Source: Pseudomonadota bacterium (lineage in GTDB: Bacteria; Pseudomonadota; Alphaproteobacteria; Dongiales; Dongiaceae). Taken from it: 64,000 nucleotides of DNA. Positions 13,924-28,953 of the stretch are shown here, in pieces (position 1 is the stretch's first letter; every line of letters begins with the position of its first letter). Location of the stretch: contig JACPDN010000006.1 of NCBI GenBank assembly GCA_016183985.1, positions 1,240,001 to 1,304,000 on the forward strand. Direction: 5' to 3'. The position numbers were made by a program, and so were the translations under genes. The notes beneath the pieces were generated by a model. That model was not told where the DNA came from. It ran no database searches and saw nothing but the letters and a program-made list of their open reading frames with translations.

Positions 13924-14412
13924 ATGCCCCAATTCGATCCCGCCATTTTCTCGCCGCTCCTGGTCTGGCTGGTCGTGACCTTCGTGGCGCTTTATGTGCT
14001 GATGTCGAAATTCGCGCTGCCGAAAGTGGCAACGATCATCGACCAGCGCGCCGAGCGCATCGAGGGCAACCTTGCCAAGGCCGAGCAGCTGAAGTCCGAC
14101 GCCGCCGCGGTGCTCGCCGCCTATGAGAAGGCCATCGCCGACGCGAAGGCCCAGGCTCAGGCGGAACTGGCCAAAGCCGCGGCCGAAATCGCCGCCGAGA
14201 CGGCCCGTCGTGAAGCCGATTTCGGGAAGCGCCTGGCCGAGCAGACTAAAACGGCTGAAGGCCGGATCAAATCGGCCCAAGCCGATGCCATGGTCCAGGT
14301 CCGGGCGATTGCCAGCGACCTTGCCGCCGGTATCGCCGCCAAGCTGACCGGTGCCAGCGTCGATCAGGCTGCTGCCGGTGCCGCCGTCGATGCCGCGATC
14401 AAGGAGCGTTGA
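13924..14412 (+). CDS. atpF2: F0F1 ATP synthase subunit b' (second b-type subunit)
   Basis: The 162-residue product has one N-terminal membrane helix (about 11-29, LLVWLVVTFVALYVLM) followed by a long Ala/Glu/Lys coiled coil. This is the b' half of the b/b' peripheral stalk heterodimer typical of alphaproteobacteria and cyanobacteria. It comes before the regular b gene, and its stop is three bases from the chosen b start, so translation is probably coupled. Confidence 0.9.
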   Translation: MPQFDPAIFSPLLVWLVVTFVALYVLMSKFALPKVATIIDQRAERIEGNLAKAEQLKSDAAAVLAAYEKAIADAKAQAQAELAKAAAEIAAETARREADFGKRLAEQTKTAEGRIKSAQADAMVQVRAIASDLAAGIAAKLTGASVDQAAAGAAVDAAIKER

Positions 14413-14415
14413 GTG

Positions 14416-14916
14416 ATGGAACACGAAGTCGGTTTCTTCGCCAATCCGCATACCTGGGTCAATATCGGCGGCCTGATCTTCCTGGCCTTCGCCGGCCCGA
14501 AGATCTGGAAGGCCCTCGCGCAGATGCTCGACCAGCGCGCCATCAAGATCAAAGCCGATCTCGACGAAGCGCAGAAGCTGAAAGACGAGGCCCAGGCCCT
14601 GCTCGGCGAATATCAGCGCAAGCAGAAGGACGCGCTTCGGGAGGCGGCCGAGATCGTCGAGACGGCCAAGGCCACGGCGCTGCGCCAGGCCAAGGACGCC
14701 GCCGCCGGCCTCGAAGCCGCGTTCATTCGCCGCGAGAAGCTGGCTCTGGAAAAGATCGCCCAGGCGGAAGCCGCTGCGATCGCCGAAGTCCGCCGCGAGG
14801 CGGTCGACGTCGCCAGCGCCGCCGCCCGCAAGCTGATTGCCAGCAGCCTCAACGATACCCGGGCCAGCGCCCTGGTCGATGCGGCCATCAAGGATGTGAA
14901 TCAGCGCCTGCACTAA
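14416..14916 (+). CDS. atpF: F0F1 ATP synthase subunit b
   Basis: The 166-residue product is the second stalk subunit: a short periplasmic end, one membrane helix (about 14-31, WVNIGGLIFLAFAGPKIW) and a long charged coiled coil. A GTG immediately before the ATG is an alternative start. It ends the operon, and a strong terminator follows 27 bases later. F1 genes are absent, matching the split atp operons of many alphaproteobacteria. Confidence 0.92.
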   Translation: MEHEVGFFANPHTWVNIGGLIFLAFAGPKIWKALAQMLDQRAIKIKADLDEAQKLKDEAQALLGEYQRKQKDALREAAEIVETAKATALRQAKDAAAGLEAAFIRREKLALEKIAQAEAAAIAEVRREAVDVASAAARKLIASSLNDTRASALVDAAIKDVNQRLH

Positions 14917-15782: not shown

Positions 15783-16289
15783 TTACTTCTTCGAGGCCTT
15801 GGCGATCGCGGCCTTCACTTCGTCGATCTGGGCGACGAAACGGCCCTGGATCAGCTCGGCAACTTCCGAACCCGACTTCTGGACGAGGTCGGTGATGTCG
15901 CGGAGGTTGGCAACGGCCTGCTCGAAGCCGGCCTTGGTGATCTCGGCCTGCTTCACGAGCTTCTCTTCGGCGCTCGTCGGGGTAGCCAATTCCTTGGCGA
16001 CCTTGCTGAACTCTTCGACGGCCTTGCGGGCGATCTCAGCCTGGCGCTGGGCCACGGCCTTGACGCCTTCGAAGGCGGCCTGGTTGGCGGCGGTCAGGAC
16101 TTCGAAGTTCTTCTTCTGGGCGGCGACGACGCTGTCGACATCGAACAGGTTCTTGCCGTTGGTGAAGGCGTTGCTGTAGTCACCGAACCACTTGCCGAAA
16201 TCGGCCTGGATCTTGGTGAAATCGAACTTCGTGAAGTCCGGGAAAGCGGCGGTCGGGGTGCTCTCAAACGTGTTCTGGGCCTTGGCCAT
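15783..16289 (-). CDS. phaP: Phasin family protein (polyhydroxyalkanoate granule-associated)
   Basis: The 168-residue product is a helical, Ala/Lys/Glu-rich phasin with the family layout: an aromatic N-terminus (FPDFTKFDFTKIQADFGKWF), then NGKNLFDVDSVVAAQKKNFE and long amphipathic helices to a KASKK end. Phasins coat PHA granules and control their number and size. There is no PHA synthase in the window. The promoter region carries two TGC-type palindromic boxes, suggesting control by a PhaR-like repressor. Confidence 0.88.
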   Translation of the reverse strand: MAKAQNTFESTPTAAFPDFTKFDFTKIQADFGKWFGDYSNAFTNGKNLFDVDSVVAAQKKNFEVLTAANQAAFEGVKAVAQRQAEIARKAVEEFSKVAKELATPTSAEEKLVKQAEITKAGFEQAVANLRDITDLVQKSGSEVAELIQGRFVAQIDEVKAAIAKASKK

Positions 16290-16457: not shown

Positions 16458-16492
16458 CTAAAAGCAAAGCCGCCGCCCGGGTGGGGCGGCGG
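16458..16492 (-). terminator. Terminator of the sugar ABC transporter operon
   Basis: On the minus strand CCGCCGCCC (16492-16484) pairs with GGGCGGCGG (16478-16470), followed by CTTTGCTTTT. It lies about 30 bases after the ATPase gene stop. Confidence 0.85.
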
Positions 16493-16522: not shown

Positions 16523-17614
16523 TCAGACCGGAATAACCGCCCCGCTCTCCTTCAAGAAGATGTGCATCTTGTCGGTATCGATCGGCACCAAGGCGGTATC
16601 GTCCGCCGCTGCCTTGGTCTGGGCGGCGACCTGCGCCGTGAAGGGCGCGCCGCCCGCGGTGCCGATGATGAGCGTGTGCGGGCCTAAGGGTTCGACGTCG
16701 CGGACCTTAAGTTCGATCATCGGCTGCGGCTTGCCGGCTGCCACCGTGTGCTCGGGGCGAATGCCGACAACGACGCGCTTGCCGACATGGGCACCATAGG
16801 CGGCAGCCCGCGCCTGCGGGATCGGAATGCTGATATTGCCGTCAGCGCGGAAGCCCAAGCCGCCATCACCACCGGTCAGCTCGCCCTCGATGAAGTTCAT
16901 GGATGGCGCGCCGATGAAAGCCGCGACGAACAGATTGCACGGCCTCTCATAGAGCGTGATCGGGTCGGCCGCCTGTTCGATGCGGCCGCCATTCATGACG
17001 ACGACGCGATCGGCCATGGTCATGGCTTCGACCTGGTCGTGGGTCACATAGACGACGGTGGTCTGGAGGCGGCGATGCAGCGATTTGATCTCGGTGCGCA
17101 TCTCGATGCGCAGCTTGGCGTCGAGATTGGAGAGTGGCTCGTCGAACAGGAACACATCCGGGTTGCGCACGATGGCGCGGCCGATGGCCACACGCTGGCG
17201 CTGACCGCCGGAAAGCTGTTTGGGACGACGCTGCAGATAGGGATCGAGGTTGAGGATGCGGGCTGCATTCTTGACGGCGGTGTCGATCTCGCCCACCGCG
17301 GTGCCGCGCACCTTCATGCCGTAGCCGATATTCTCGGCGACCGTCATATGCGGGTAGAGTGCGTAATTCTGGAACACCATCGAGCAATTGCGCAGGCCCG
17401 GGCGCAGGTTGGTGACATCGCGGTCGCCGATGCGGACGATACCGCTGCTGGCCGTCTCAAGCCCGGCGATCATGCGCAAGGTCGTGGTCTTGCCGCAGCC
17501 CGAGGGTCCGACCAGCACGACGAATTCGCGCGAGGCGATTTCGAGATCCAACGGCGGGATGACAGTAACGTCGCCGAAGGATTTGGTGATGCGTTCGAGG
17601 CTTACGCGGGCCAT
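16523..17614 (-). CDS. Sugar ABC transporter ATP-binding protein (CUT1, UgpC/MalK type)
   Basis: The 363-residue ATPase has Walker A GPSGCGKT at 36-43, Q-loop [10 protein letters not shown], signature LSGGQ at 134-138, Walker B FLFDEP around 158-159 and the H-loop [17 protein letters not shown]-terminal TOBE/OB region (about 240-363) places it in the MalK/UgpC family of CUT1 importers. The ATG at 17614 is preferred over an upstream TTG at 17620. It is the last gene of the deoxyribose-type cluster and would energise the two permeases upstream. Confidence 0.93.
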
Positions 17615-17714
17615 GGGCAAATTCTTCTTTGTTGGGCAATCCCGCCCCGGCTTTTCAAGGGCCGAGGCGGGACAGCGTTAGTCCAGATAGTCTAACTCAA
17701 ACGGCCTGGGCGAG

Positions 17715-19166
17715 TTACTTCGCTGGCAGGCCCATCGCGGCGCGATAGGCAGCAAGCTGCTTGTCGCGGCCGAACTCGTCGGTGAGACGGTTCCATTCCT
17801 TGGCCACGTTGTCGAGCGCTTCCTGGGCGCTCTCTTCGCCGGCCAAAGCCTTGGAGAGTTCGATTTCCACGACTTCGGTGTAGGAGAAGTAGCCCGGGAG
17901 ACGCATGTCGAGCACGACGTTCTCAGCCGCAAGCGAATCCGCCTGGGCGCCCAAATATTCCTTGGCTTCGCGCGGGCTGAACAGCTTCGACCACAGGTCG
18001 AGATTGGTCGTGTGCGAGATGCGGTAGGGGTTCACACCGGTGCCACCGGTGATCGCCGCCTTGCCCGAGACTTCCGGGCTGGAGAGGAATTCGATGTAGT
18101 TCCAGGCAGCTTCCTGGTTCTTCGAGGAAGCGGGAACCGCCGCCTGCCAACCGCCGAACGCCATGAACGGCGATTTGACGATGTGGTCGAACTTCTTCCA
18201 TTCCTTGGTCTTGTAATCATAGATCTCGTTCGAGCCCGGCAGCACGGCCGAACCGACATTCCCTGAGATCTTCGACTGCTTCGGATCCGCCGCGATGACG
18301 CCCGTGTCGCCCCAGCCGATCGACTGGGCAACCTGGCCGCCCGCAACCGCCGCGTTCACTTCACCGAACGAGAAGTTCAGTGCGTTGGGCGGGGCGAGCT
18401 TCGCGGACTTCACATATTCCTCGAGGCCGCGGACCCAGCCCGGGTTGTTGATTTCGGCATCCATCGTCTCCGGATTGAAGAACATGGCGCCCTTCTGACC
18501 CGGAATGTTGGTGTAGGAAGCCGCATGGCTGAAGAAGAACCAGAACTGCTGGCCGCCGCGACGATAGGCTTCCGCCGTGCCCCACAGGCCCTTATCCGGA
18601 CGGGTGAAGAATTCGGCGATGTCGAGATACTGCTTCCAGTCCTGCGGCACGGCGAGGTCGTAGCCATATTTCGCCTTGAACGCCTCTTTCTCCTTCGGAT
18701 CCTCGAAGAGATCGATGCGGTAGGTATAGGTGTGCACGTCACCGTCGATGGTCTGCGACAGGGTCTTGCCGTTCCACACCATCAGCTGTTCGCGGTAGAT
18801 CGGGGCGATGTCGTCCCAGGCAGCACCCTTGCGCATGGCTTCCGGCACTTCACTGAGGAAGTCGGTGAAGTCCGGCGACCATGCCGGCGCGAAGCTGATG
18901 ACATCGAAGGTCTCTTCGCCCGAGGAGAGCGAGGTGACGATCTTCGGATACAGTTCCGACCAGGGGAATTCGACCACGTTCACCTTGCCGCAGGTCTTCT
19001 TGGCCCATTCTTCGCCGGCGCTCTGCAGGGCCGAAGCGATGTAGGGACCGGTCTGCGAGGCGGCGGTCAGTGTCACGCCGGTATAATCCGGATCGCAAGC
19101 GAGTGCCGCGCCGCTGGCCAGCGAAAGCGCTGCCATCGCCGTTGCACCAAGTAGCAGTTTCCTCAT
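17715..19166 (-). CDS. Extracellular sugar-binding protein of the ABC transporter
   Basis: The 483-residue product has a Sec signal peptide (about 1-23, ending ALA before CDPDY) and a family-1 solute-binding fold. Typical features are VNVVEFPWSELYPKIVTSL, FDVISFAPAWSPDF and FGGWQAAVPASSKNQEAAWNYIEFLSSPE. At 483 residues it is longer than most CUT1 binding proteins (about 420). It lies between the permease and ATPase genes. The ligand is not readable from sequence; context suggests a pentose or deoxypentose. Confidence 0.9.
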   Translation of the reverse strand: MRKLLLGATAMAALSLASGAALACDPDYTGVTLTAASQTGPYIASALQSAGEEWAKKTCGKVNVVEFPWSELYPKIVTSLSSGEETFDVISFAPAWSPDFTDFLSEVPEAMRKGAAWDDIAPIYREQLMVWNGKTLSQTIDGDVHTYTYRIDLFEDPKEKEAFKAKYGYDLAVPQDWKQYLDIAEFFTRPDKGLWGTAEAYRRGGQQFWFFFSHAASYTNIPGQKGAMFFNPETMDAEINNPGWVRGLEEYVKSAKLAPPNALNFSFGEVNAAVAGGQVAQSIGWGDTGVIAADPKQSKISGNVGSAVLPGSNEIYDYKTKEWKKFDHIVKSPFMAFGGWQAAVPASSKNQEAAWNYIEFLSSPEVSGKAAITGGTGVNPYRISHTTNLDLWSKLFSPREAKEYLGAQADSLAAENVVLDMRLPGYFSYTEVVEIELSKALAGEESAQEALDNVAKEWNRLTDEFGRDKQLAAYRAAMGLPAK

Positions 19167-19232
19167 GTTATCACTCCCGTTCTCTTTGTTGGTTAGCTTG
19201 GTTCGACTTCTAGTGTTGAACTCTTGTCGCGG

Positions 19233-20261
19233 TCATTTAATGGCCCCGATCAGTAGACCGGACCGCATGAGCCTGCTCAGCAACGCCGCCATGACCATCA
19301 TCGGGACGATGGCAACCAAAGCGGCGGCGGAAATCGACCACCATTCGTCGCCGCGCTGGCTGTTCTGACCAGCAACGAGAATGGGGAGGGTCTGCCATTT
19401 GGCATTGGTGAGAAAGAGCGCGAAGAGGAACTCATTCCAGACGAAAGCCAAGGTGATCATGAAGGTGGCGACGAGGCCGGGGACGGACATCGGCAGGACG
19501 ATGCCGGTGAAAATCCGCCAGGACGGCACGTTGTCGACCATGGCCGCCTCTTCCACCTCGAGGGGCAAAGCGGCGAAGAAGTCGCGCATCAGCCAGACGA
19601 CGATGGGCAGGCTGAAGGCGATATAGGCCAGCACCATGCCGAAATAGGTATCGATCAGCTTGAACCCTAAACGCCCCATTTCACTGTACATCAGGAACAA
19701 GGCGAAGGCGGCGACGATCGGCGGGAACATGCGCTGGCTGACGAACCAGAAGATGATGTCCTCATTGCCGAGAATCGGCCCTGGCACGCGCAGGCGGTTG
19801 GTGACCAGCGACAGAACCAAGGCGATGGCAAAGGCGATGATCATGGAGATCGCCCGGCTGAAGCCGAACACATTGGCGCCCAGCAGGTAACCGCCACAGG
19901 CGATGACGAAGAAGACGATGCCCGAGGCGAGCTTCACCTTGAAAGGAAAGCGCACCAAGGCATAGGCCGCCATGGCGCCGATGGCGGTCGCGAGAACCGC
20001 CGAAGAGAGGCCGATGATGGTGGAGGCAATGACGTTGTTGAAGAACTCACCGCGCTCGCCGGAGAGGAGCTCCGACCAGGCCTGCAGCGAGGGGTCGAAA
20101 TCGACGAACGGAATGAACGTCGCTTGGCCGACGACCGAGATCGACGTCTTGAACGAGGTGACGATCACCCAGTAAAGCGGAAACAAGGTGAACGCCGCCC
20201 AGAACAGGATTCCGAGCAGGGCGAAATAGCGCGGCGCGCCTTTGAGAGTGCGGGTGCTCAT
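19233..20261 (-). CDS. Sugar ABC transporter permease (MalG type) with an extra ~59-residue membrane segment
   Basis: The 342-residue permease carries the EAA loop EVEEAAMVDNVPSWRIFTGI and a MalG-like start and end (LLIGAIK). Typical MalG-type permeases have about 275-300 residues. Here an insertion of roughly 59 residues (about 109-167) follows AAYALVRFPFK and precedes FWFVSQRMFPP. It contains two likely extra membrane helices (about 112-135 and 138-154). The start overlaps the preceding permease stop by three bases (20258-20260). Confidence 0.9.
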   Translation of the reverse strand: MSTRTLKGAPRYFALLGILFWAAFTLFPLYWVIVTSFKTSISVVGQATFIPFVDFDPSLQAWSELLSGERGEFFNNVIASTIIGLSSAVLATAIGAMAAYALVRFPFKVKLASGIVFFVIACGGYLLGANVFGFSRAISMIIAFAIALVLSLVTNRLRVPGPILGNEDIIFWFVSQRMFPPIVAAFALFLMYSEMGRLGFKLIDTYFGMVLAYIAFSLPIVVWLMRDFFAALPLEVEEAAMVDNVPSWRIFTGIVLPMSVPGLVATFMITLAFVWNEFLFALFLTNAKWQTLPILVAGQNSQRGDEWWSISAAALVAIVPMMVMAALLSRLMRSGLLIGAIK

Positions 20262-21130
20262 CTGTGCTTCGCCAGATAGGGTTTAAGGATCGCGAGATAG
20301 ACTACGCCGATCACCGTGATGACGATCAGGAACAGGAACGAGAGGGCCGATGTGTAGCCGAGGTTGAACTTCTTGAAGCCTTCCTGATAGGCGAACAGGG
20401 TCAGCGTTTCGGTCGAGATACCCGGCCCGCCGCCGGTCAGCACGAAGACCGTATCGATGATCTTGTAGCTCTCGATGAGGCGGATGAAGACGACGGCGGC
20501 CGAGATGGGCAGCATCATCGGGAAGGTGATGTCCCAGAACTGCCGCCAGGGGCTGGCATTCTCCAGCGAGGCCGCCTCATAGACATCATCCGGCAGGGTG
20601 GCAAGACCGGCCAGCAGCATGAGGATGATGAAGGGCGTCCATTGCCAGACCTCGACCGTGATGAGTGCGCCGATTGCCCAATGCGTCTCGGTGAGGAACG
20701 GCAAATTGGGAAAACCGAGGAAGGTCATGAACTGGTTCAATGGACCTTGCGTCGGGTTGAAGATCTGGCGCGCGATGAGGGCGACGGCGACAGGGGCAAT
20801 CAGCATCGGCAGCAGGAAGCCGACCCGGAACAGCTTTTCGCCCGGCACCTTGGCATGGAGCGCCAAGGCGACGGCAAAGCCGATCACGTATTGGATGGCA
20901 ACCGAGGTGAAGGCAATGATGCTGGTCGTCACCGTCACATGCCAGAAGCGCGGGTTGGTCAGCAGGCTGACATAATTGTCGAGGCCATTGAAACGCGGTG
21001 GCGACGGCGGCACCAGGCGGAAGCTCATGAAGCTGGTGGTCAGCGAATAGATCAGCGGAAAGATCGAGATGGCCAGCACCACGAAGAGCGCCGGCCAGAT
21101 AAAGAAATATTTGATCGGGTCGTTCCGCAT
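20258..21130 (-). CDS. Sugar ABC transporter permease (MalF type)
   Basis: The 290-residue inner-membrane protein has six likely helices and the EAA motif YEAASLENASPWRQFWDITF that contacts the ATPase. Its ATG overlaps the kinase stop by one base, and its own stop overlaps the next permease start, so the genes are tightly coupled. An upstream GTG at 21133 is an alternative start. Confidence 0.93.
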   Translation of the reverse strand: MRNDPIKYFFIWPALFVVLAISIFPLIYSLTTSFMSFRLVPPSPPRFNGLDNYVSLLTNPRFWHVTVTTSIIAFTSVAIQYVIGFAVALALHAKVPGEKLFRVGFLLPMLIAPVAVALIARQIFNPTQGPLNQFMTFLGFPNLPFLTETHWAIGALITVEVWQWTPFIILMLLAGLATLPDDVYEAASLENASPWRQFWDITFPMMLPISAAVVFIRLIESYKIIDTVFVLTGGGPGISTETLTLFAYQEGFKKFNLGYTSALSFLFLIVITVIGVVYLAILKPYLAKHR

Positions 21131-22065
21131 CACGCCACCTTGGCAAGGAGAGCGTCGATCTCGGCCCGCGACGGCATGGCTGGCGCCGTGCCGCGACGCG
21201 TCACCGAAATGCCGGCAACCGTGCAGCCAAAGCGCACGGCTTCTGCGGGTGCCACACCATTGGCGATCGCTGCGGCAAAGCCGCCGACGAAGGCATCGCC
21301 GGCACCGGCCGTATCGATGACGCTGCCGGCTGAAACCGCCGGCACATGAACGGACCCGGATTTGCTGTGCAGCAGGGCTCCGCGTTCGCCCAAAGTGATG
21401 AGCGCGTTTTTCGCCCCCTTGGCGAGGATCGCGTCACCGGCACGGCGGGCTGCTTCCAGGGAATCCAGCTGGAAGCCGACGATGGCGGCCGCCTCACTCT
21501 CATTGGGAGCGATGTAATCGCACAAGGGATAGAAGGCGTCGGGGAAACGCTCCGCCGGTGCCGGATTGAAGACCGTCGTCACACCGGCAGCGCGCGCGAT
21601 TTCCAGCCCGCGCTGCGCCGCCGCCACCGGCTGTTCGAGTTGCGTCACGAAGACCTTGGCGCCACGAATGCTGGCGGCATGGGCGTCGACATCGGCGGGC
21701 GACAGCGTGCCGGCGGCACCCGGATAGACGATGATCGCGTTCTCGCCGGTCTTGTCATTGACATAGATGAAGGCAACGCCGGTTGGATCCTGATCGGAGA
21801 TGCCGATCTCGGCCTTGATGCCTTCCTGCGCCCAGGTTTTCTGCGCCACGTCACCGAACGTGTCGCGGCCGATCTTCGAGATGAAGGTCACCTTGGCGCC
21901 GGCACGGGCAGCAGCCACGGATTGATTGGAGCCCTTGCCCCCCGGCCCCATCTTGAAGCCAGAACCGGCGATGGTCTCGCCGATCTTCGGCATCCGGTCG
22001 CCCATGAAGGCGAGATCGGCGACGAAGATCCCCAGAATGCAGACGCCCTGCTGTCCCGCGCTCAT
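21130..22065 (-). CDS. Ribokinase-family (PfkB) sugar kinase, possibly deoxyribokinase
   Basis: The 311-residue kinase has the N-terminal PfkB signature MGPGGKGSNQSVAAARAGA and the C-terminal signature with catalytic Asp in VIDTAGAGDAFVGGFAAA. NPAPAE and ITLGERGA are typical of ribokinases. The start at 22065 has AGGA upstream and sits 16 bases after the mutarotase stop. With deoxyribose-phosphate aldolase in the same operon, the expected product is deoxyribose-5-phosphate, as for DeoK, but ribose cannot be excluded from sequence. Confidence 0.9.
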   Translation of the reverse strand: MSAGQQGVCILGIFVADLAFMGDRMPKIGETIAGSGFKMGPGGKGSNQSVAAARAGAKVTFISKIGRDTFGDVAQKTWAQEGIKAEIGISDQDPTGVAFIYVNDKTGENAIIVYPGAAGTLSPADVDAHAASIRGAKVFVTQLEQPVAAAQRGLEIARAAGVTTVFNPAPAERFPDAFYPLCDYIAPNESEAAAIVGFQLDSLEAARRAGDAILAKGAKNALITLGERGALLHSKSGSVHVPAVSAGSVIDTAGAGDAFVGGFAAAIANGVAPAEAVRFGCTVAGISVTRRGTAPAMPSRAEIDALLAKVA

Positions 22066-22081
22066 GCCACTATTTCCTAAA

Positions 22082-22540
22082 TCAGTACTTAGCTTCCGGC
22101 GGAATGACGCCCTTGGTGAACATGAAGCAGCCATAGAAGCGGCGCTCACCCGTGGCGATCACGCAATAGGATTTCTTGGCGATTTCATAGAAGGCCATGC
22201 GCTCGACTGGCACCAGCGGCCAGGATTTGCCTTCGGCCTTGTCGATCTCGGCCTGCACTTCCTTCTGCACCGGTGGGATCTCGGTCGGATTGCCGACGAT
22301 TTCCATGCGCATTGCGGCATCGGGGATGAAGGTATCGAGCGGCATGGCGGAGAGAATGGCGCGCGTCGCTTCGGCTGTGGTGACACCGTCGATGCGCAGC
22401 AAGGCGCCGAGCGTCGTCTGCTTGGCAACCGATGCGCCGGGAAAATTGGTGTCGCACAATACCAGGCGATCGCCATGACCCATGGCGCGCAAGGCATAGA
22501 GCACATCCGCATTGAGCAGCGGATTGACATTCTTCAGCAC
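22082..22540 (-). CDS. RbsD/FucU-family sugar mutarotase
   Basis: The 152-residue product has the conserved opening NADVLYALRAMGHGDRLVLCDTNFPG, with the catalytic His in GHGD, and the end of the family fold (CVIATGERRFYGCFMFTKGVI). These enzymes interconvert ring forms or anomers of free sugars so that the kinase can use them. The motif is closer to FucU than to ribose-type RbsD. It directly precedes the kinase. Confidence 0.9.
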   Translation of the reverse strand: MLKNVNPLLNADVLYALRAMGHGDRLVLCDTNFPGASVAKQTTLGALLRIDGVTTAEATRAILSAMPLDTFIPDAAMRMEIVGNPTEIPPVQKEVQAEIDKAEGKSWPLVPVERMAFYEIAKKSYCVIATGERRFYGCFMFTKGVIPPEAKY

Positions 22541-22607
22541 GACTCATCCCTCCCCGTTATCCATCGCCTCACGCGGTTCACATCGCCGCGCTTCATCAAC
22601 ACTCTAT

Positions 22608-24992
22608 TCACTCGCCGTAAGGAATCCAGATGTTCTTCACCTGCACCGCATGACGCAGCAGGATCGGCCCTTCTGCGGCCGTCTGATCGAACCAATCGGT
22701 CAGAAGGCCGTGATCGGTGAGCACGCGCTTCAAGTTGCCGACCGAGAGCTTCTCGGCCAGCGTTGCGATTTCTTTGGTACTGAACGCCCAGATGGCATCG
22801 ACGTCATCATGATCGGCAAGCGTCTTGGCGAGATCCTTCGCCGCGCCCGTCACGATGTTGACGACACCCGCCGGCACATCGGAGGTTTCCAGCACCTGAT
22901 AGAAATCGGTAGCTGCCAGCGGATGGCGCTCCGACGGCACAATGACGGCGCGATTGCCCATGGCGATGACCGGCGCCAGCAATGAAATGAAAGAAAGCAA
23001 CGGCGCTTCATCGGGGCAGACGATACCGACAACGCCGATCGGCTCGTTCATGGCCAGTGCCACACCGCGCAAGGGCGGTGCGTGCACGCTGCCTTCGAAC
23101 TTGTCAGCCCAGGCGCCGTAAGCGAAGAGGCGGCCGACACTGGCCTCGACTTCCGCCGCCGATTTGGCTTTGGAGGCGCCGGTCATCGCGGCAACGCGGC
23201 CGGCGAATTCGTCGGCACGGGCCGAGAGATTTTCGGCCATGTAATAGAGGATCTGCGCACGGTTATGCGATGTGGCCTTCGACCAGCCTTCCGCACCGCG
23301 CGCGGCTGCCACGGCGTTGCGGATATCCTTACGATTGCCCTCGCCCACTTCGCCCAGGCGCACGCCCTTGGGCGACAGCACGGCACGCGAATAATTGCCG
23401 TCGGGGCGGGCCTGCTTGCCGCCGACAAAGAGCTTCGCGGTCCGGTCGAGATCGGGAAGATCGAAACCGGCAACCTTCTCCTGTGCTTCCGGCAATTCGG
23501 CCGCGACGCGCGCCTTGCGGCCAACCCAGGCCTTGGGCTTCAGATATTCATAGGCGCCTTCCTTGCCGCCCTCACGGCCATAGCCGGATTCGCGATAGCC
23601 GCCGAAACCGACCGCGGCATCGAAAAGATTAGTGGCATTGATCCAGACCACCCCGGCTTGGAGCTTCGGCGCAATGTCGAGGGCCAGGCCAATCGTCTCG
23701 CTCCAGATGCTGGCAGAAAGGCCATAGCGCGTATTGTTAGCGAGCATCACCGCTTCGTCCGGCGTGCGGAAGGTCATCGACACCAGCACGGGGCCGAAGA
23801 TTTCTTCCCGTGCCACGGTCGCCGCCGTTTGCACATGGGCGAGCAGGGTCGGCGGGTAGAAGCAACCGCCTGCGGGCAGGTCGATCTCCGGCTGGAACAG
23901 CTCGGCGCCTTCGGCAACGCCTGTTGCGACGAGCGACTTGATGCGCTCCAGCTGCACCGGCGCCACGATGGCACCCATATCGATCGCCTTGTCGAGCGGG
24001 TTGCCGACGCGCAAATTCGACATGCGGCGCTTGAGGCGGGCATGGAACTTGTCGGCAATGCCTTCCTGCACCAAAAGGCGCGACCCGGCGCAGCAGACTT
24101 GGCCCTGGTTGAACCAGATGGCGTCAACGACACCTTCGATGGCTCCGTCGATATCGGCATCATCGAAGACGATGAAGGGCGACTTGCCGCCGAGCTCAAG
24201 TGTCAGCGACTTGCCGGAGCCTGCCGTTTGCGCGCGGATGAGCTTGCCGACTTCGGAGGAACCGGTGAACGCGATCTTGTCGACCCCGCTATGACCAACG
24301 ATGGCAGCACCCGTACTGCCGTCACCCGTTACCACATTGAGGACACCGGCCGGCAAACCGGCCGCCGCCGCGATCTCGGCAAACAGCAAAGCTGTGAGTG
24401 GGGTGAATTCGGCAGGCTTCAGCACGACCGTATTGCCGAACGCCAAGGCCGGCGCCACTTTCCATGCCAGCATGAGGAGCGGGAAGTTCCACGGAATGAT
24501 CTGCCCGACGACGCCGACCGGCACCTGATCCGCCAGCTCCGTCGCCTGCAACTGCGCCCAGCCGGCGTGATAATAGAAATGGCGCGCCACCAGCGGCACA
24601 TCGATATCGCGCGTCTCACGCACCGGCTTACCATTGTCGAGCGCCTCGATCACCGCAAAGAGGCGGGCATGGCGCTGAACGGCGCGGGCGAGCGCGTAAA
24701 GATGTCGCGCACGGGCATGGCCCGGCAGCTTCGCCCAAGGGCCTTGCGCCTTCCGCGCAGCTGCAACAGCGGCATCGACATCGGCCGCATCGCCTTGCGC
24801 CACACGGCCGAGTTTCTTGCCCGTCGCGGGATCCATCGCATCGAAATGAACGCCGGCAGCCGGTTGCACGAACTTGCCACCGATGAAATGGCCGAAGCCG
24901 GATTCGTAGCGCTTCAGCCAGGCACGCGCTTCACCATCGGCCTCCGGCGCCGGGCCATAGGACATCTCGTCGAAATAGCGGGCGACACTCAT
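22608..24992 (-). CDS. Two-domain aldehyde dehydrogenase, ALDH16 type
   Basis: The 794-residue protein has two ALDH units. The first (about 1-490) is complete, with LELGGKSPF (Glu266) and NQGQVCCAGSR (catalytic Cys300), and the NAD-binding PWNFPLLM and FTGSSEVG motifs. The second (about 505-794) keeps the fold, with EPIGVVGIVCPDEAPLLSF, but lacks recognisable Glu and Cys catalytic motifs. This layout defines ALDH16. In this cluster the likely substrate is acetaldehyde released by the aldolase. AGGA lies seven bases before the ATG at 24992, only four bases after the aldolase stop. Confidence 0.92.
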   Translation of the reverse strand: MSVARYFDEMSYGPAPEADGEARAWLKRYESGFGHFIGGKFVQPAAGVHFDAMDPATGKKLGRVAQGDAADVDAAVAAARKAQGPWAKLPGHARARHLYALARAVQRHARLFAVIEALDNGKPVRETRDIDVPLVARHFYYHAGWAQLQATELADQVPVGVVGQIIPWNFPLLMLAWKVAPALAFGNTVVLKPAEFTPLTALLFAEIAAAAGLPAGVLNVVTGDGSTGAAIVGHSGVDKIAFTGSSEVGKLIRAQTAGSGKSLTLELGGKSPFIVFDDADIDGAIEGVVDAIWFNQGQVCCAGSRLLVQEGIADKFHARLKRRMSNLRVGNPLDKAIDMGAIVAPVQLERIKSLVATGVAEGAELFQPEIDLPAGGCFYPPTLLAHVQTAATVAREEIFGPVLVSMTFRTPDEAVMLANNTRYGLSASIWSETIGLALDIAPKLQAGVVWINATNLFDAAVGFGGYRESGYGREGGKEGAYEYLKPKAWVGRKARVAAELPEAQEKVAGFDLPDLDRTAKLFVGGKQARPDGNYSRAVLSPKGVRLGEVGEGNRKDIRNAVAAARGAEGWSKATSHNRAQILYYMAENLSARADEFAGRVAAMTGASKAKSAAEVEASVGRLFAYGAWADKFEGSVHAPPLRGVALAMNEPIGVVGIVCPDEAPLLSFISLLAPVIAMGNRAVIVPSERHPLAATDFYQVLETSDVPAGVVNIVTGAAKDLAKTLADHDDVDAIWAFSTKEIATLAEKLSVGNLKRVLTDHGLLTDWFDQTAAEGPILLRHAVQVKNIWIPYGE

Positions 24993-24996
24993 GGTC

Positions 24997-26019
24997 TTAT
25001 CCTGCGGCATGCCGGTTATAGGCCGAATAGCGGCCGGTCACGTGATGTTCGAGCTGGCGTTCGATATCGGCGAGCAGGCTCGAGGCGCCGATGCGGAAGA
25101 GATTGGGTTCCAGCCATTCGCGGCCCAGCTCCTCCTTCATCAGGAACTGGTAGTTGAGCACGTCCTTCGCGGCCGAGATACCGCCGGCCGGCTTGTAGCC
25201 GATCTTGAAACCGGTCCGTTCCTGATACTCGCGGATCATGCGGATCATGATCAATGTCACGGCGAGTGTCGCGTTGACGCTTTCCTTGCCGGTCGAGGTC
25301 TTGATGAAATCGGCGCCGGCCATCATGCAGACCAGCGAGGCGCGCGCGACGTTGCGCAGGGTCTTCAGATCGCCGGTCGCCAGAATGGCTTTCACATGCG
25401 CCTGGCCGCAGGCGGCGCGGAAGTCGCGCATCTCGTCATAAAGTGCCTGCCAATTGCCGGTCAGCACATGCTCGCGGGTGATGACGATGTCGATTTCTTG
25501 CGCCCCGTCTTTGACCGAAGCCTCGATCTCCTTCAGCTTCAGATCATGCGGGATGAGGCCGGCGGGAAAACCGGTCGAAACGGCGGCAACCGGAATGCCG
25601 GAGCCGGCCAACGCCTCGACCGCAATCGCCACGAAGCGGTGATAGACGCAGATCGCCCCGGTGGTGAGGCCGCGATCGGCCATGCCCAGCGCTTCAAGGA
25701 GGTCGGCGCGCACCGGCGCCTTGGCCTTGGCGCAGAGTCGCTTTACGCGCTCGGTCGTGTCATCGCCGTTCAAGGTGGTAAGATCGATGCAGGTGATGGC
25801 TTTCAAGAGCCAGGCCGCCTGGGCGTCCTTCTTCACCGTGCGGCGGCCGGGCAAGGTCGCGACACGACGCTCGGCAGCCGACAGGTTGACACGGACGCCC
25901 TGCACCCAGCCGAGATCCAGCGGCTGCGCCACATTGCGGGCAATCGCGTTATGGCCAGCCAAAACGTGATTGGCTTGCGCTGCGTGGCCACCGATGGGCG
26001 CGATCTTGAGATCAGCCAT
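24997..26019 (-). CDS. deoC: Deoxyribose-phosphate aldolase, long eukaryote-like form
   Basis: DERA cleaves 2-deoxyribose-5-phosphate to glyceraldehyde-3-phosphate and acetaldehyde. The Schiff-base Lys240 is in DFIKTSTGKESVNAT and the second active lysine is Lys276 in GYKPAGGIS. At 340 residues it is much longer than E. coli DeoC (259). It strongly resembles animal DERA, sharing blocks such as RRTVKK..QAAWLLKA, IDLTTL.GDDT and FRIGAS.LL.DIERQ..HHVTGRY. It leads the catabolic operon, 214 bases after the DeoR gene. Confidence 0.95.
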   Translation of the reverse strand: MADLKIAPIGGHAAQANHVLAGHNAIARNVAQPLDLGWVQGVRVNLSAAERRVATLPGRRTVKKDAQAAWLLKAITCIDLTTLNGDDTTERVKRLCAKAKAPVRADLLEALGMADRGLTTGAICVYHRFVAIAVEALAGSGIPVAAVSTGFPAGLIPHDLKLKEIEASVKDGAQEIDIVITREHVLTGNWQALYDEMRDFRAACGQAHVKAILATGDLKTLRNVARASLVCMMAGADFIKTSTGKESVNATLAVTLIMIRMIREYQERTGFKIGYKPAGGISAAKDVLNYQFLMKEELGREWLEPNLFRIGASSLLADIERQLEHHVTGRYSAYNRHAAG

Positions 26020-26144
26020 GCCGACACCGTCTGTTCAAGGACAGCGCTGAGGAGAAGTTTGCGACCAGGGGACAAGGATAGCGGCGCGACCCGATTGCCA
26101 AGTCCGCCCGTCTCCCTCCCATGCGTCGCGCTCTTTCCGGCGCT

Positions 26145-26160
26145 TGTTAATATTCTACCA
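26145..26160. promoter_or_regulatory. Candidate DeoR operator, imperfect site
   Basis: TGTTAA-N4-CTACCA between the regulator and deoC resembles the perfect palindrome TGTTAA-N4-TTAACA found upstream of the regulator (11 of 16 positions match). The surrounding 26136-26180 is AT-rich and is where the deoC operon promoter would be expected on the minus strand. Confidence 0.4.
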
Positions 26161-26233
26161 AATTATGATCGCTTTATGACATCGCCTGACAGACCCGTCA
26201 AGCGCCGCCCTGCGACCTTTTTGAGACCAAAAC

Positions 26234-26956
26234 TCAGGCGCCGGGCGCCTTTGCCCCGGTCTCGGTGACGATAGTCTTGAAATCATTGAGCCGTGCAAAA
26301 TAGGCCGGCTTCACAATCCCGAACTTGCTGGAATCAATCACCAGATGACTCTCAAGCGCACTGGCGATCGCCTTCTGCTTGATCGGCACTTCATGGAAAT
26401 GCGAACAGGAGGCGCCGCGTTCCACATCGACGCCGCCGGCCGAGATGAACGCCTTGTTGATGCCGAAGCGGCCGAGCGGCTCCAGCCATTCCCCGCTCGA
26501 AAACGTGGCCGAGGCGGAATGATAAAGACCGCCCAGCATGATCATGCGCAGATTGGGCTTTTGCGACAGGCGATCCGCCACGTTGAGCGAATAGCAGATC
26601 ACCGTAATGCTCAGATCTGCCGGTATTTGTTCGGCCAAATGGTCGAGTGTCGAACCGCAATCGATGAAGATCGTGTCATCCGGTACAATCATTTTGAGCG
26701 CATAGCTGCAGGCGCGGAACTTGGCGTTGGCGTGGCTGTCCGCCTCGCGCCCCAGCTCGTAACCCCCAGCGATATCGTCGGCGCTGACGATATGCCCGCC
26801 AAGATAGGCGAAACGCTCCGGATTGGCGCTGACATCGCGCCGCACGGTCATTTCAGAAACACCGAGCAGGGCCGCGGCATCTCGCAGATGCAGCACGCCG
26901 CGCTGGGCCAAGGCCTCGGCAAGCAGATTCGTGCGCTGTGACTTGCGGGTCGACAT
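26234..26956 (-). CDS. DeoR-family transcriptional regulator
   Basis: The 240-residue regulator has an N-terminal winged helix (about 5-60, LHLRDAAALLGVSEMTVRRD) and the sugar-phosphate-binding DeoRC domain with FIDCGSTLDHLAEQIP and later ISAGGVDVERGASC. Such repressors are usually released by a phosphorylated sugar; here deoxyribose-5-phosphate is the natural guess. It heads the cluster on the same strand as the catabolic genes. A perfect 16-bp palindrome lies about 115 bases upstream of its ATG. Confidence 0.9.
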   Translation of the reverse strand: MSTRKSQRTNLLAEALAQRGVLHLRDAAALLGVSEMTVRRDVSANPERFAYLGGHIVSADDIAGGYELGREADSHANAKFRACSYALKMIVPDDTIFIDCGSTLDHLAEQIPADLSITVICYSLNVADRLSQKPNLRMIMLGGLYHSASATFSSGEWLEPLGRFGINKAFISAGGVDVERGASCSHFHEVPIKQKAIASALESHLVIDSSKFGIVKPAYFARLNDFKTIVTETGAKAPGA

Positions 26957-27071
26957 GAAACCGGAAACTCCCCTGCGGCAATGCCGGCGAACCGCTGTTG
27001 GGTCGCGGGTTTGAGCTGCCTGACATCGAGCCGAGCATGCGACGGGCAGCGTCAAAACGTCAACCCGAAAA

Positions 27072-27087
27072 TGTTAAATTCTTAACA
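27072..27087. promoter_or_regulatory. Palindromic operator candidate upstream of the DeoR regulator
   Basis: TGTTAA (27072-27077), four bases, then TTAACA (27082-27087) is a perfect palindrome in an AT-rich stretch of an otherwise GC-rich region. Its position upstream of the regulator suggests autoregulation. A related imperfect copy lies at 26145-26160. Confidence 0.5.
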
Positions 27088-27639: not shown

Positions 27640-27705
27640 CGCCTATCCCTGATCCCGGCTTTGCGGCAGTATGCCGCTCCCATATTGCCGCCAGACCGGA
27701 TCATC

Positions 27706-28953
27706 ATGTCCGCCCAACCGAATATGTTCTCTGTTCTCAAGAACAGGGACTTCCTCTTCCTCGAGCTCAATGCCTTCTTTGCCAGTCTCGCCGCCGAGAT
27801 TCTGACGGTCGCGATGGGTTGGCGCATTTATGAAATATCGAACGATCCTTTCGCCCTCGGCCTCGTCGGTCTGGCGCAATTCCTGCCGACGCCGCTTCTC
27901 GTCTTGCTCACTGGCACCGTGGCGGACCGCTATTCCCGCCGGCGCATCATCACCTTCTGCATGATGGTCGAGTTCGCGGCGATGCTGGGCATTGCCGCCG
28001 CCGCCCACCTGCCCGCCGCCGACATCTGGCCCATTCTCGCCTTCCTCGTCCTGCTGGGCGCCGGGCGTGCCTTCCTCGCCCCCGCGTCGCGCGCACTAGC
28101 GCCCACTTTGGTGAAGCGCGAGGAGATCGGCGCCGCCGTTTCCTGTTCCACCGCCATCTGGCAATTCTGTTCGATCAGCGGCCCCGCCTTGGGCGGCCTG
28201 CTCTATGGTTTTTCCCCTGACATCGCCTATGGAACGGCGCTCATCATGGTCTTCCTCGCCGGTCTCGCCTCGCTTTTCATTCGGCGCGCGCCGCAGAAGG
28301 CGGTGCAGGAGGAAAGCATGATCGACGCACTGCTGGGCGGTCTGCGTTACATGCGCGCGGAGAAAATCGTGCTGGGTGCCACGACGCTCGATCTCTTTGC
28401 CGTTCTGCTTGGCACGACGATCGGCCTGCTGCCGATTTTCGCCAAGGATATCCTGCTCGCCGACGCCTTCGAACTCGGCGTGCTACGCTCGGCCATCGGA
28501 ATCGGCGCGCTCGCTATGGCCTTGTTCCTGGGCGTCTTCCCAGTGCGCCGCAAAGCCGGGCCGATTATGTTCGCGACCGTTGCCGTATTCGGCCTCGGCA
28601 CGATCGTCTTCGGCCTGTCGCACTCGCTCTTCCTGTCGGTGGGCGCCCTCATCGTCATGGGGGCCAGCGACATGATCAGCGTCTATATCCGCGAAGTGCT
28701 GCTCCAGCTCTGGACACCCGATTCCTTGCGTGGCCGCGTCACCGCCGTCAATTCAGTCGCCATCTCCGCCTCCAACGAACTCGGCACCTTCCGCGCCGGC
28801 GTCTCGGCCGATCTGTTCGGCCCGGTCATCGCCACCGTTCTGGGCGGAATCTGCACGCTGGGTGTCACCTTGATGTGGATGTATCTCTTCCCCAAGCTCC
28901 GGAAAGCCGATCACCTCTCGGGGCTCGATGAGGATGGCCTCAAGGAAACCTGA
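27706..28953 (+). CDS. MFS transporter (EntS/MFS_3-like)
   Basis: The 415-residue product has about twelve membrane helices. It begins FSVLKNRDFLFLELNAFFASLAAEILTVAMGWRIYE and has the MFS loop motif GTVADRYSRRR between helices 2 and 3. This opening is typical of the MFS_3 group that contains the enterobactin exporter EntS. The substrate is unknown. The ATG at 27706 is preferred because the upstream extension is not protein-like. It converges on a MarR gene. Confidence 0.88.
   Translation: MSAQPNMFSVLKNRDFLFLELNAFFASLAAEILTVAMGWRIYEISNDPFALGLVGLAQFLPTPLLVLLTGTVADRYSRRRIITFCMMVEFAAMLGIAAAAHLPAADIWPILAFLVLLGAGRAFLAPASRALAPTLVKREEIGAAVSCSTAIWQFCSISGPALGGLLYGFSPDIAYGTALIMVFLAGLASLFIRRAPQKAVQEESMIDALLGGLRYMRAEKIVLGATTLDLFAVLLGTTIGLLPIFAKDILLADAFELGVLRSAIGIGALAMALFLGVFPVRRKAGPIMFATVAVFGLGTIVFGLSHSLFLSVGALIVMGASDMISVYIREVLLQLWTPDSLRGRVTAVNSVAISASNELGTFRAGVSADLFGPVIATVLGGICTLGVTLMWMYLFPKLRKADHLSGLDEDGLKET

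Follow-up and report, generated by a model that had tools for sequence, protein, structure and literature searches.

The window analyzed here is a 64,000-nucleotide stretch of an alphaproteobacterial genome of the family Dongiaceae (assembly GCA_016183985.1, contig JACPDN010000006.1, positions 1,240,001 to 1,304,000). Nine genes lie on its minus strand between positions 27055 and 16523, encoding a DeoR-type regulator, a 2-deoxyribose-5-phosphate aldolase (DERA, deoC), a two-domain aldehyde dehydrogenase (ALDH16), an RbsD/FucU-family protein, a ribokinase-family kinase and the four components of a CUT1-type ATP-binding cassette (ABC) importer. We propose that this cluster probably serves growth on free 2-deoxy-D-ribose as an inducible operon, because the kinase has valine at the position of Asn14 in Escherichia coli ribokinase, deo-type operators are present, and 80 loci of this CUT1 type show no phosphorylase or phosphopentomutase match in the stretches viewed. 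Somewhat more guardedly, we favor the wider view that Alphaproteobacteria have a dedicated CUT1 system for free 2-deoxyribose whose repressor recognizes the same operator as E. coli DeoR, and that bacterial ALDH16 regularly accompanies the long-form aldolase to clear acetaldehyde, in nucleoside and free-sugar pathways alike. The pathway itself is known; the CUT1 importer and the closely paired ALDH16 make this a little-described version of it. A first-pass annotation of the window had described these genes as a cluster on one strand, and all of them are indeed present with open frames:

27072..27087, unstranded: DeoR-type operator, perfect TGTTA-N6-TAACA palindrome upstream of deoR (pattern scan of the window)
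26234..26956, minus: DeoR-type transcriptional regulator, deoR (PF00455, PF08220; PRK10681 is the best NCBIfam match)
26145..26160, unstranded: second DeoR-type operator, one mismatch, between deoR and deoC (pattern scan)
24997..26019, minus: deoC, 2-deoxyribose-5-phosphate aldolase, long form, 340 residues (TIGR00126)
22608..25010, minus: ALDH16, two-domain aldehyde dehydrogenase (PF00171 in two stretches; match to 6mvr)
22082..22540, minus: fucU, RbsD/FucU-family mutarotase/pyranase (PF05025, 125.5 bits)
21130..22065, minus: ribokinase-family kinase, predicted 2-deoxyribose 5-kinase (TIGR02152; alignment to 1gqt)
20258..21133, minus: CUT1 importer permease 1, MalF/UgpA-like (PF00528)
19233..20261, minus: CUT1 importer permease 2, MalG/UgpE-like, 342 residues (PF00528)
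17715..19166, minus: CUT1 periplasmic solute-binding protein, SBP_bac_1 (PF01547)
16523..17620, minus: CUT1 importer ATPase, MalK/UgpC-like (PF00005, PF17912, PF08402; PRK11650, 469 bits against a cut-off of 432)
16470..16492, minus: terminator-like hairpin past the last gene, the ATPase (pattern match only)

Two of these genes have longer possible frames. The kinase frame that opens at the first GTG (22149) overlaps fucU; translation more likely starts at the ATG at 22065, because the Pfam/NCBIfam match begins only at residue 35–36. The deoR frame is open from 27055; its start is probably the ATG at 26956, since the helix-turn-helix match begins at residue 41. With the kinase counted from 22065, the genes from deoC through the ATPase overlap or are separated by gaps of at most 94 bp, and so likely form one transcription unit.

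In the proposed pathway, the CUT1 importer would take up 2-deoxy-D-ribose, the FucU-type mutarotase would accelerate the change from the predominant pyranose into forms whose 5-OH is free, and the kinase would then make 2-deoxyribose 5-phosphate. The aldolase, for which the family assignment is well supported, is predicted to cleave this product to glyceraldehyde 3-phosphate and acetaldehyde, and ALDH16, judging from its strict pairing with the aldolase, would oxidize the acetaldehyde to acetate. By homology, the DeoR-type repressor may act on the two operator sites seen before deoR and deoC, and deoxyribose 5-phosphate may release it as in E. coli.

The kinase passes the curated ribokinase model TIGR02152 (305.9 bits, cut-off 299.65) and scores 257 bits against the PRK11142 ribokinase model, below its cut-off of 341. 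In the alignment to 1gqt, the position of E. coli ribokinase Asn14 is taken by Val, which is residue 43 of the frame from 22149 and residue 15 counted from the ATG at 22065. We inspected this position in 89 loci, of which 78 gave a kinase row and 11 did not. Val is present in 76 of the 78 rows, those of the window kinase and of a Caballeronia cluster kinase included. The two remaining rows have Met, in the 35% identical kinase of an Agrobacterium deoC-ALDH16 cluster, and Asn, in the second ribokinase of the window's own genome. Salmonella DeoK presumably has Met here as well. Two sets of deoC, ALDH16, FucU and kinase genes with other neighbors and without this binding protein (L149 and L151) encode kinases that are 52% and 46% identical, both with Val; these two sets represent further importer variants, and L149 also has a second kinase. 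Lacking the asparagine that contacts ribose O2, the kinase is thus a predicted 2-deoxyribose 5-kinase. Consistent with a role of this position, passages of one study describe E. coli built with RbsK N20Y and an insertion in rbsR, in which N14D or N14S had also been gained in 15 of 16 2-deoxyribose colonies, with the authors' caution that oligonucleotide errors may be the source of the N14 changes (PMC6452873). In the accessible part of another, a computed model has no bond from Asn14 to arabinose, the C2 epimer of ribose (PMC9604405). The FucU protein passes only the Pfam model PF05025, and scores below the NCBIfam cut-offs for L-fucose mutarotase (83.6 against 141 bits) and D-ribose pyranase (32 against 93 bits); the closest solved structure is 2ob5 (Atu2016). 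By these scores we would place it in PF05025 only, and in neither equivalog.

The regulator scores 210.3 bits against PRK10681 (E. coli DeoR), with the next best NCBIfam match at 73 bits. Because the cut-off of 244 is not reached, we name it only as DeoR-type. The operator motif TGTTA-N6-TAACA was spotted by eye in two regions of the window and then tested in the window, in E. coli, in the related loci and in the genome. With at most one mismatch it occurs twice in the 64-kb window (0.04 expected), before deoR and before deoC respectively; the right edge that the first-pass annotation had given the cluster, 27087, is the exact last base of the perfect palindrome. Five such sites are present in the whole genome, where the reversed-pattern control gives 60, and the sole perfect one is that before deoR. 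E. coli K-12 has two perfect sites ahead of deoC with arms identical to those in the window, and palindromes with these arms are described, in passages of PMC5326754, as E. coli DeoR operators to which binding is impaired by deoxyribose 5-phosphate. Among the loci compared, 74 have a regulator or aldolase zone; their upstream zones, 39,633 bp in total, hold 64 sites, as against 11 in the other 1,541,968 bp, and 53 of the 74 loci have at least one operator match. The three other Dongia loci (L031–L033) each have one site before deoR and one before deoC, spaced by 905–916 bp compared with 927 bp in the window, which would allow DNA looping as described for E. coli. Exact palindromes enumerated over the deoC upstream regions yielded no word that recurs in over three of them. 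The genome's remaining three one-mismatch sites are close to genes that, by sequence alone, look like an adenylosuccinate-synthetase/hisZ pair, a flagellin gene and a recombinase gene, and we claim no wider DeoR regulon.

To collect related loci, genomes were scanned with aligned binding proteins, which gave 103 relatives; the best 80 were taken, so that the importer is present by construction, and genes were counted in the 72 loci that extend 8 kb or more upstream of the gene for the binding protein. The aldolase, ALDH16 and the kinase are each found in 66 of these (for the kinase, with one plasmid remnant counted), the regulator in 63 and FucU in 60. In this synteny survey, of the kind that the first-pass annotation had proposed for deoC, ALDH16 and CUT1, aldolase, ALDH16, kinase and the whole CUT1 importer occur together in 65 of 72 loci, and all nine genes in 58. 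The gene set is a conserved unit, not a chance grouping. The loci span Dongia, Rhizobiaceae, Phyllobacteriaceae, Aureimonas, Bradyrhizobium and Azospirillum, and within the genus Dongia a binding protein at least 88% identical is encoded in five of seven genomes, including the one studied here. Nine loci (L101–L106 and L108–L110, from Kiloniellaceae, Roseibium, Rhodobacterales and others) have no FucU match. One of them, L109, lies on a contig labeled as the actinomycetote Enemella evansiae; this contig, with a near-full cluster, groups among alphaproteobacteria and is a probable contamination or else a case of transfer. The full gene order is also found on plasmids, namely pNGR234b of Sinorhizobium fredii NGR234 and one of Ensifer adhaerens. 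Plasmid pRL8 of Rhizobium johnstonii 3841 has a degraded copy adjoining another sugar ABC operon (L015, 9322-14590), with FucU and the importer, only a C-terminal remnant of the kinase and no aldolase, while the chromosome of the same strain (L063) has all nine genes.

The aldolase passes the TIGR00126 cut-off (150 bits against 117.3) and, in alignments to 1jcl and 1ktn, keeps the counterparts of the catalytic Asp and both Lys residues of the E. coli enzyme, which we take to be Asp102, Lys167 and Lys201. A PF01791 search found it to be the only DERA of its genome, the other PF01791 protein being a class I fructose-bisphosphate aldolase. ALDH16 matches 6mvr, presumably the Loktanella ALDH16, over its full two-domain length (1012 bits, residues 7–799). 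It has two tandem ALDH-like domains with the active-site Cys in the first, and its N-terminal half keeps the PWNFP, LELGGK and GQVCCAGSR motifs. To our knowledge, the physiological substrate of ALDH16 has not been established. We searched for the ALDH16 C-terminal domain (E ≤ 1e-40) and for the long aldolase (E ≤ 1e-60), which excludes the shorter aldolases of the E. coli kind from the counts. In a sample of 289 genomes of the class, the two occur in the identical 29 genomes and neither is found in the other 260. Of 398 genomes sampled across the phylum, 44 have ALDH16 and 45 the aldolase, with all 44 in common; the forty-fifth has, adjoining its aldolase, a more divergent two-domain dehydrogenase (41% identity over 801 residues). 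The aldolase lies on the same contig within 3.5 kb of ALDH16 in 28 of 29 places in the class and in 44 of 45 in the phylum, and in the two exceptions the aldolase match is on a different contig of a draft genome. At these thresholds, no ALDH16 without a long-form aldolase was found in either sample; the samples overlap and relatives are not independent, so that p-values for the pairing are overstated. Since the pairing is this strict, the simplest reading is that bacterial ALDH16 clears the acetaldehyde made by the aldolase, as the sequence data suggest.

The surroundings of the aldolase differ across the class. We analyzed 25 loci outside Dongia, drawn from the 29 class-sample genomes with the long aldolase; seven of these stretches are shorter than the 18 kb of the others, mostly because of contig ends. 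ALDH16 adjoins deoC in all 25, and a purine nucleoside phosphorylase is present in 13, a BMP-type binding protein in 11, deoB in 11, deoA in 10, the kinase in three, FucU in three and a CUT1 binding protein in one. The queries for the phosphorylase, deoA, deoB and BMP came from one of these loci (L130), where the first three pass curated cut-offs and the BMP name comes from a weak match of 80 bits against a cut-off of 400. Within at most 10 kb on each side, none of the 80 CUT1 loci has a match to the purine nucleoside phosphorylase, deoA or deoB. Because class-sample loci pair the aldolase and ALDH16 with nucleoside genes and CUT1 loci do so without them, the pair looks like a common core, used for nucleosides or, here, for a free sugar. 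CUT1 is rare beside this aldolase class-wide, and relatives use other importers or none. The initial impression that a CUT1 importer is unusual in this setting therefore stands for the class as a whole, but not for Bradyrhizobium, many Rhizobiaceae and Dongia, in which it recurs. Genes for deoC and ALDH16 lie beside importers annotated as CUT2-style in Caballeronia (L118), in Agrobacterium (L120) and in another Phyllobacterium, in which a plasmid has CUT2-like genes and an FGGY kinase followed by deoC and ALDH16, with no match to this kinase or to FucU. On Sinorhizobium meliloti pSymB and in Qingshengfaniella, the regulator, aldolase, ALDH16 and FucU occur together without this kinase or importer there.

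The importer itself has the make-up of a CUT1 system: an SBP_bac_1 binding protein, two BPD_transp_1 permeases and one MalK-type ATPase with OB/TOBE domains. The binding protein is far from any solved one (best sequence match 5iai, E 2.8e-10), and 5iai is also the best match to its AlphaFold model (Z 21.3, rmsd, the root-mean-square deviation, 5.3, 343 residues aligned), with many maltose-binding proteins within about 2 Z units. Given the moderate quality of the model (mean pLDDT, the predicted local distance difference test score, of 68.8) and the nearly equal maltose-binding matches, no ligand was read from it. The first-pass annotation had seen in the cluster a self-contained route for deoxypentose import and catabolism through a kinase and an aldolase; this main idea is strengthened by the Val at Asn14, the deo operators and the lack of phosphorylase and phosphopentomutase matches, whereas 2-deoxyribose is inferred as the importer ligand from the gene neighbors only.

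Several observations weigh against a system dedicated to 2-deoxyribose. Five Phyllobacterium loci (L036, L042, L043, L045 and L049) carry the importer without deoC or the kinase. Their binding proteins are 76–78% identical to that of the window, and a XylB-like FGGY kinase lies directly downstream of the importer (at 10001-14155 in L036), with the FGGY kinases of the other four 82–92% identical to that of L036. A related FGGY kinase (78%; 337-1833) adjoins a full deoC cluster in an uncultured Rhizobium (L039), and in Marinovum, which has a 61% relative of the binding protein, the importer is followed by an FGGY kinase relative (50–56%) in two pieces. Only two alignment columns separate the five Phyllobacterium binding proteins from the other 76. 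The kinase scores as a ribokinase, RbsK and DeoK each accept the other's sugar according to passages of PMC13432705, and mutating the homologous Asn of a plant ribokinase did not much lower its ribose activity, as stated in the accessible part of PMC9604405. No operator match at one mismatch is found in 21 of the 74 loci, many of them from Rhizobium and Ensifer with an Agrobacterium locus in addition, and the motif was fixed after inspection of the window, even though it equals the E. coli operator. One of the 80 CUT1 loci has a BMP match and nine have a weak BMP-ATPase match; the phosphorylase queries derive from a single genome, and each locus was viewed over no more than the 10 kb per side. 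Finally, we found no ligand or enzyme assay of any cluster member in the open-licence literature.

As the importer is separable and stands beside an FGGY kinase in Phyllobacterium, L039 and Marinovum, its ligand may be broader than, or other than, deoxyribose. The enzymes would then still handle deoxyribose, with an importer that is broad or serves another pentose or polyol, and deoxyribose would be one of several ligands or enter otherwise. The nearest solved binding proteins, 5iai and 4rya, would fit such a role, their ligands being ribitol and mannitol. This possibility overlaps with the explanation we prefer and does not exclude it. We nevertheless regard it as rather unlikely: in a tree of 83 binding proteins, where Marinovum is a distant outgroup, the five Phyllobacterium proteins form one clade (100/99) nested among proteins from other loci, of which almost all are linked to deoC as far as contig ends permit a judgment (the "deoC" label in this tree being the default for all non-FGGY loci, contig-cut loci and pRL8 included), and deoC, ALDH16 and the kinase are retained in the great majority of loci.

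It is highly improbable that the cluster is a ribose operon, in which the kinase and FucU would serve ribose while the aldolase and ALDH16 act only in general nucleoside salvage. RbsD/FucU proteins often accompany ribose systems, and the kinase score would agree with this; however, Val replaces Asn14 almost throughout while the other ribokinase of the genome has Asn, the regulator is DeoR-type with deo-type operators, and ribose 5-phosphate has no need of such an aldolase. Least probable of all is that the operon salvages deoxynucleosides, taking up nucleosides and depending on phosphorylases encoded elsewhere. BMP-type importers, purine nucleoside phosphorylase, deoA and deoB are frequent beside this aldolase in the class. 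The genome also has, elsewhere, a nucleoside hydrolase gene (C10:307413-308234) and a thymidine-phosphorylase-family gene adjoining a PNP-family gene (C13:391354-393023), which might supply (deoxy)ribose or its 1-phosphate. Yet the CUT1 loci, over the stretches viewed, lack matches to phosphorylase, deoA and deoB, a sugar 5-kinase and a mutarotase would be pointless for sugar 1-phosphates, and the importer is CUT1, not BMP-type.

The Dongia cluster, a presumed 2-deoxyribose operon, can be compared with several known systems. Like kinase/aldolase clusters, it has a DERA of the deoC equivalog and a ribokinase-family sugar kinase in the same operon. The deoQKPX system uses a major-facilitator permease, with the mutarotase DeoX beside the kinase; in the nine-gene Dongia cluster, a CUT1 ABC importer and an RbsD/FucU protein take their place. 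In the deoK-deoC route of Salmonella and of Paraburkholderia/Burkholderia, a kinase is likewise followed by DERA to give glyceraldehyde 3-phosphate and acetaldehyde, but the Dongia cluster has a CUT1 ABC importer and carries the mutarotase and ALDH16 within the operon; in passages of PMC6365646, Price and colleagues state that no route other than kinase/aldolase had been known to them before, and add oxidative routes. The same aldolase is found in E. coli deoCABD, along with the same operator arms, and, with an adjoining ALDH16, in the alphaproteobacterial BMP-punA-deoC-ALDH16-deoA-deoB operon (L130); in Dongia, a kinase, a mutarotase and CUT1 replace the phosphorylases, phosphopentomutase and BMP-type importer. 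The Caballeronia cluster, which has FucU and the kinase, shares the pathway enzymes (aldolase 78% and ALDH16 67% identical) and a DeoR-type regulator, and has an importer of another family. That of Agrobacterium also has a DeoR-type regulator (aldolase 65%, ALDH16 60%), together with an aldose epimerase and the more distant Met-type kinase; the importer family in both was read from annotation and ATPase length. MalEFGK2 and UgpBAEC share the four-gene CUT1 architecture and domain families, whereas the partner in Dongia is a monosaccharide kinase/aldolase route. In comparison with 6mvr, the Dongia ALDH16 sits in a defined pathway.

No description of an ABC deoxyribose importer or of this cluster was found in the open-licence literature, which is weak evidence of novelty. 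The accessible parts of two S. meliloti transport papers (PMC3454389, PMC4961836) contain nothing on this locus, and that of the GapMind paper (PMC9007349) no ABC deoxyribose importer. A link of the Caballeronia cluster to Burkholderia phytofirmans fitness data was left out, because locus tags for the kinase/aldolase genes are not given in the accessible part of PMC6365646.

Decaying DNA, as in soil, releases deoxyribose, whose catabolism is poorly described as far as uptake is concerned; an ABC importer that is conserved in rhizobia, Bradyrhizobium and Dongia could partly close this gap. The pairing with the aldolase gives ALDH16, an enzyme of uncertain role, a testable substrate in acetaldehyde. 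Deoxyribose and ribose operons, now labeled "ribokinase" and "sn-glycerol-3-phosphate transporter" in records, might be distinguished with the aid of two simple markers, Val in place of Asn14 and the DeoR-type operator. We set aside these labels ("sn-glycerol-3-phosphate transporter UgpC" in full) as family-level names.

A second terminator-like hairpin lies at the end of deoR (26250-26236). Neither such hairpins (nine found, 9.3 expected) nor the hits of a promoter scan (two found, 2.3 expected) exceed shuffled sequence in the window. On the plus strand, an open reading frame for an MFS-like (major facilitator superfamily) membrane protein (27661-28953, read by eye only) adjoins the cluster and is probably unrelated to it. 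Beyond the cluster, ATP-synthase-b-like frames and a phasin-like frame were read from the sequence, at 13924-14916 and 15783-16289.

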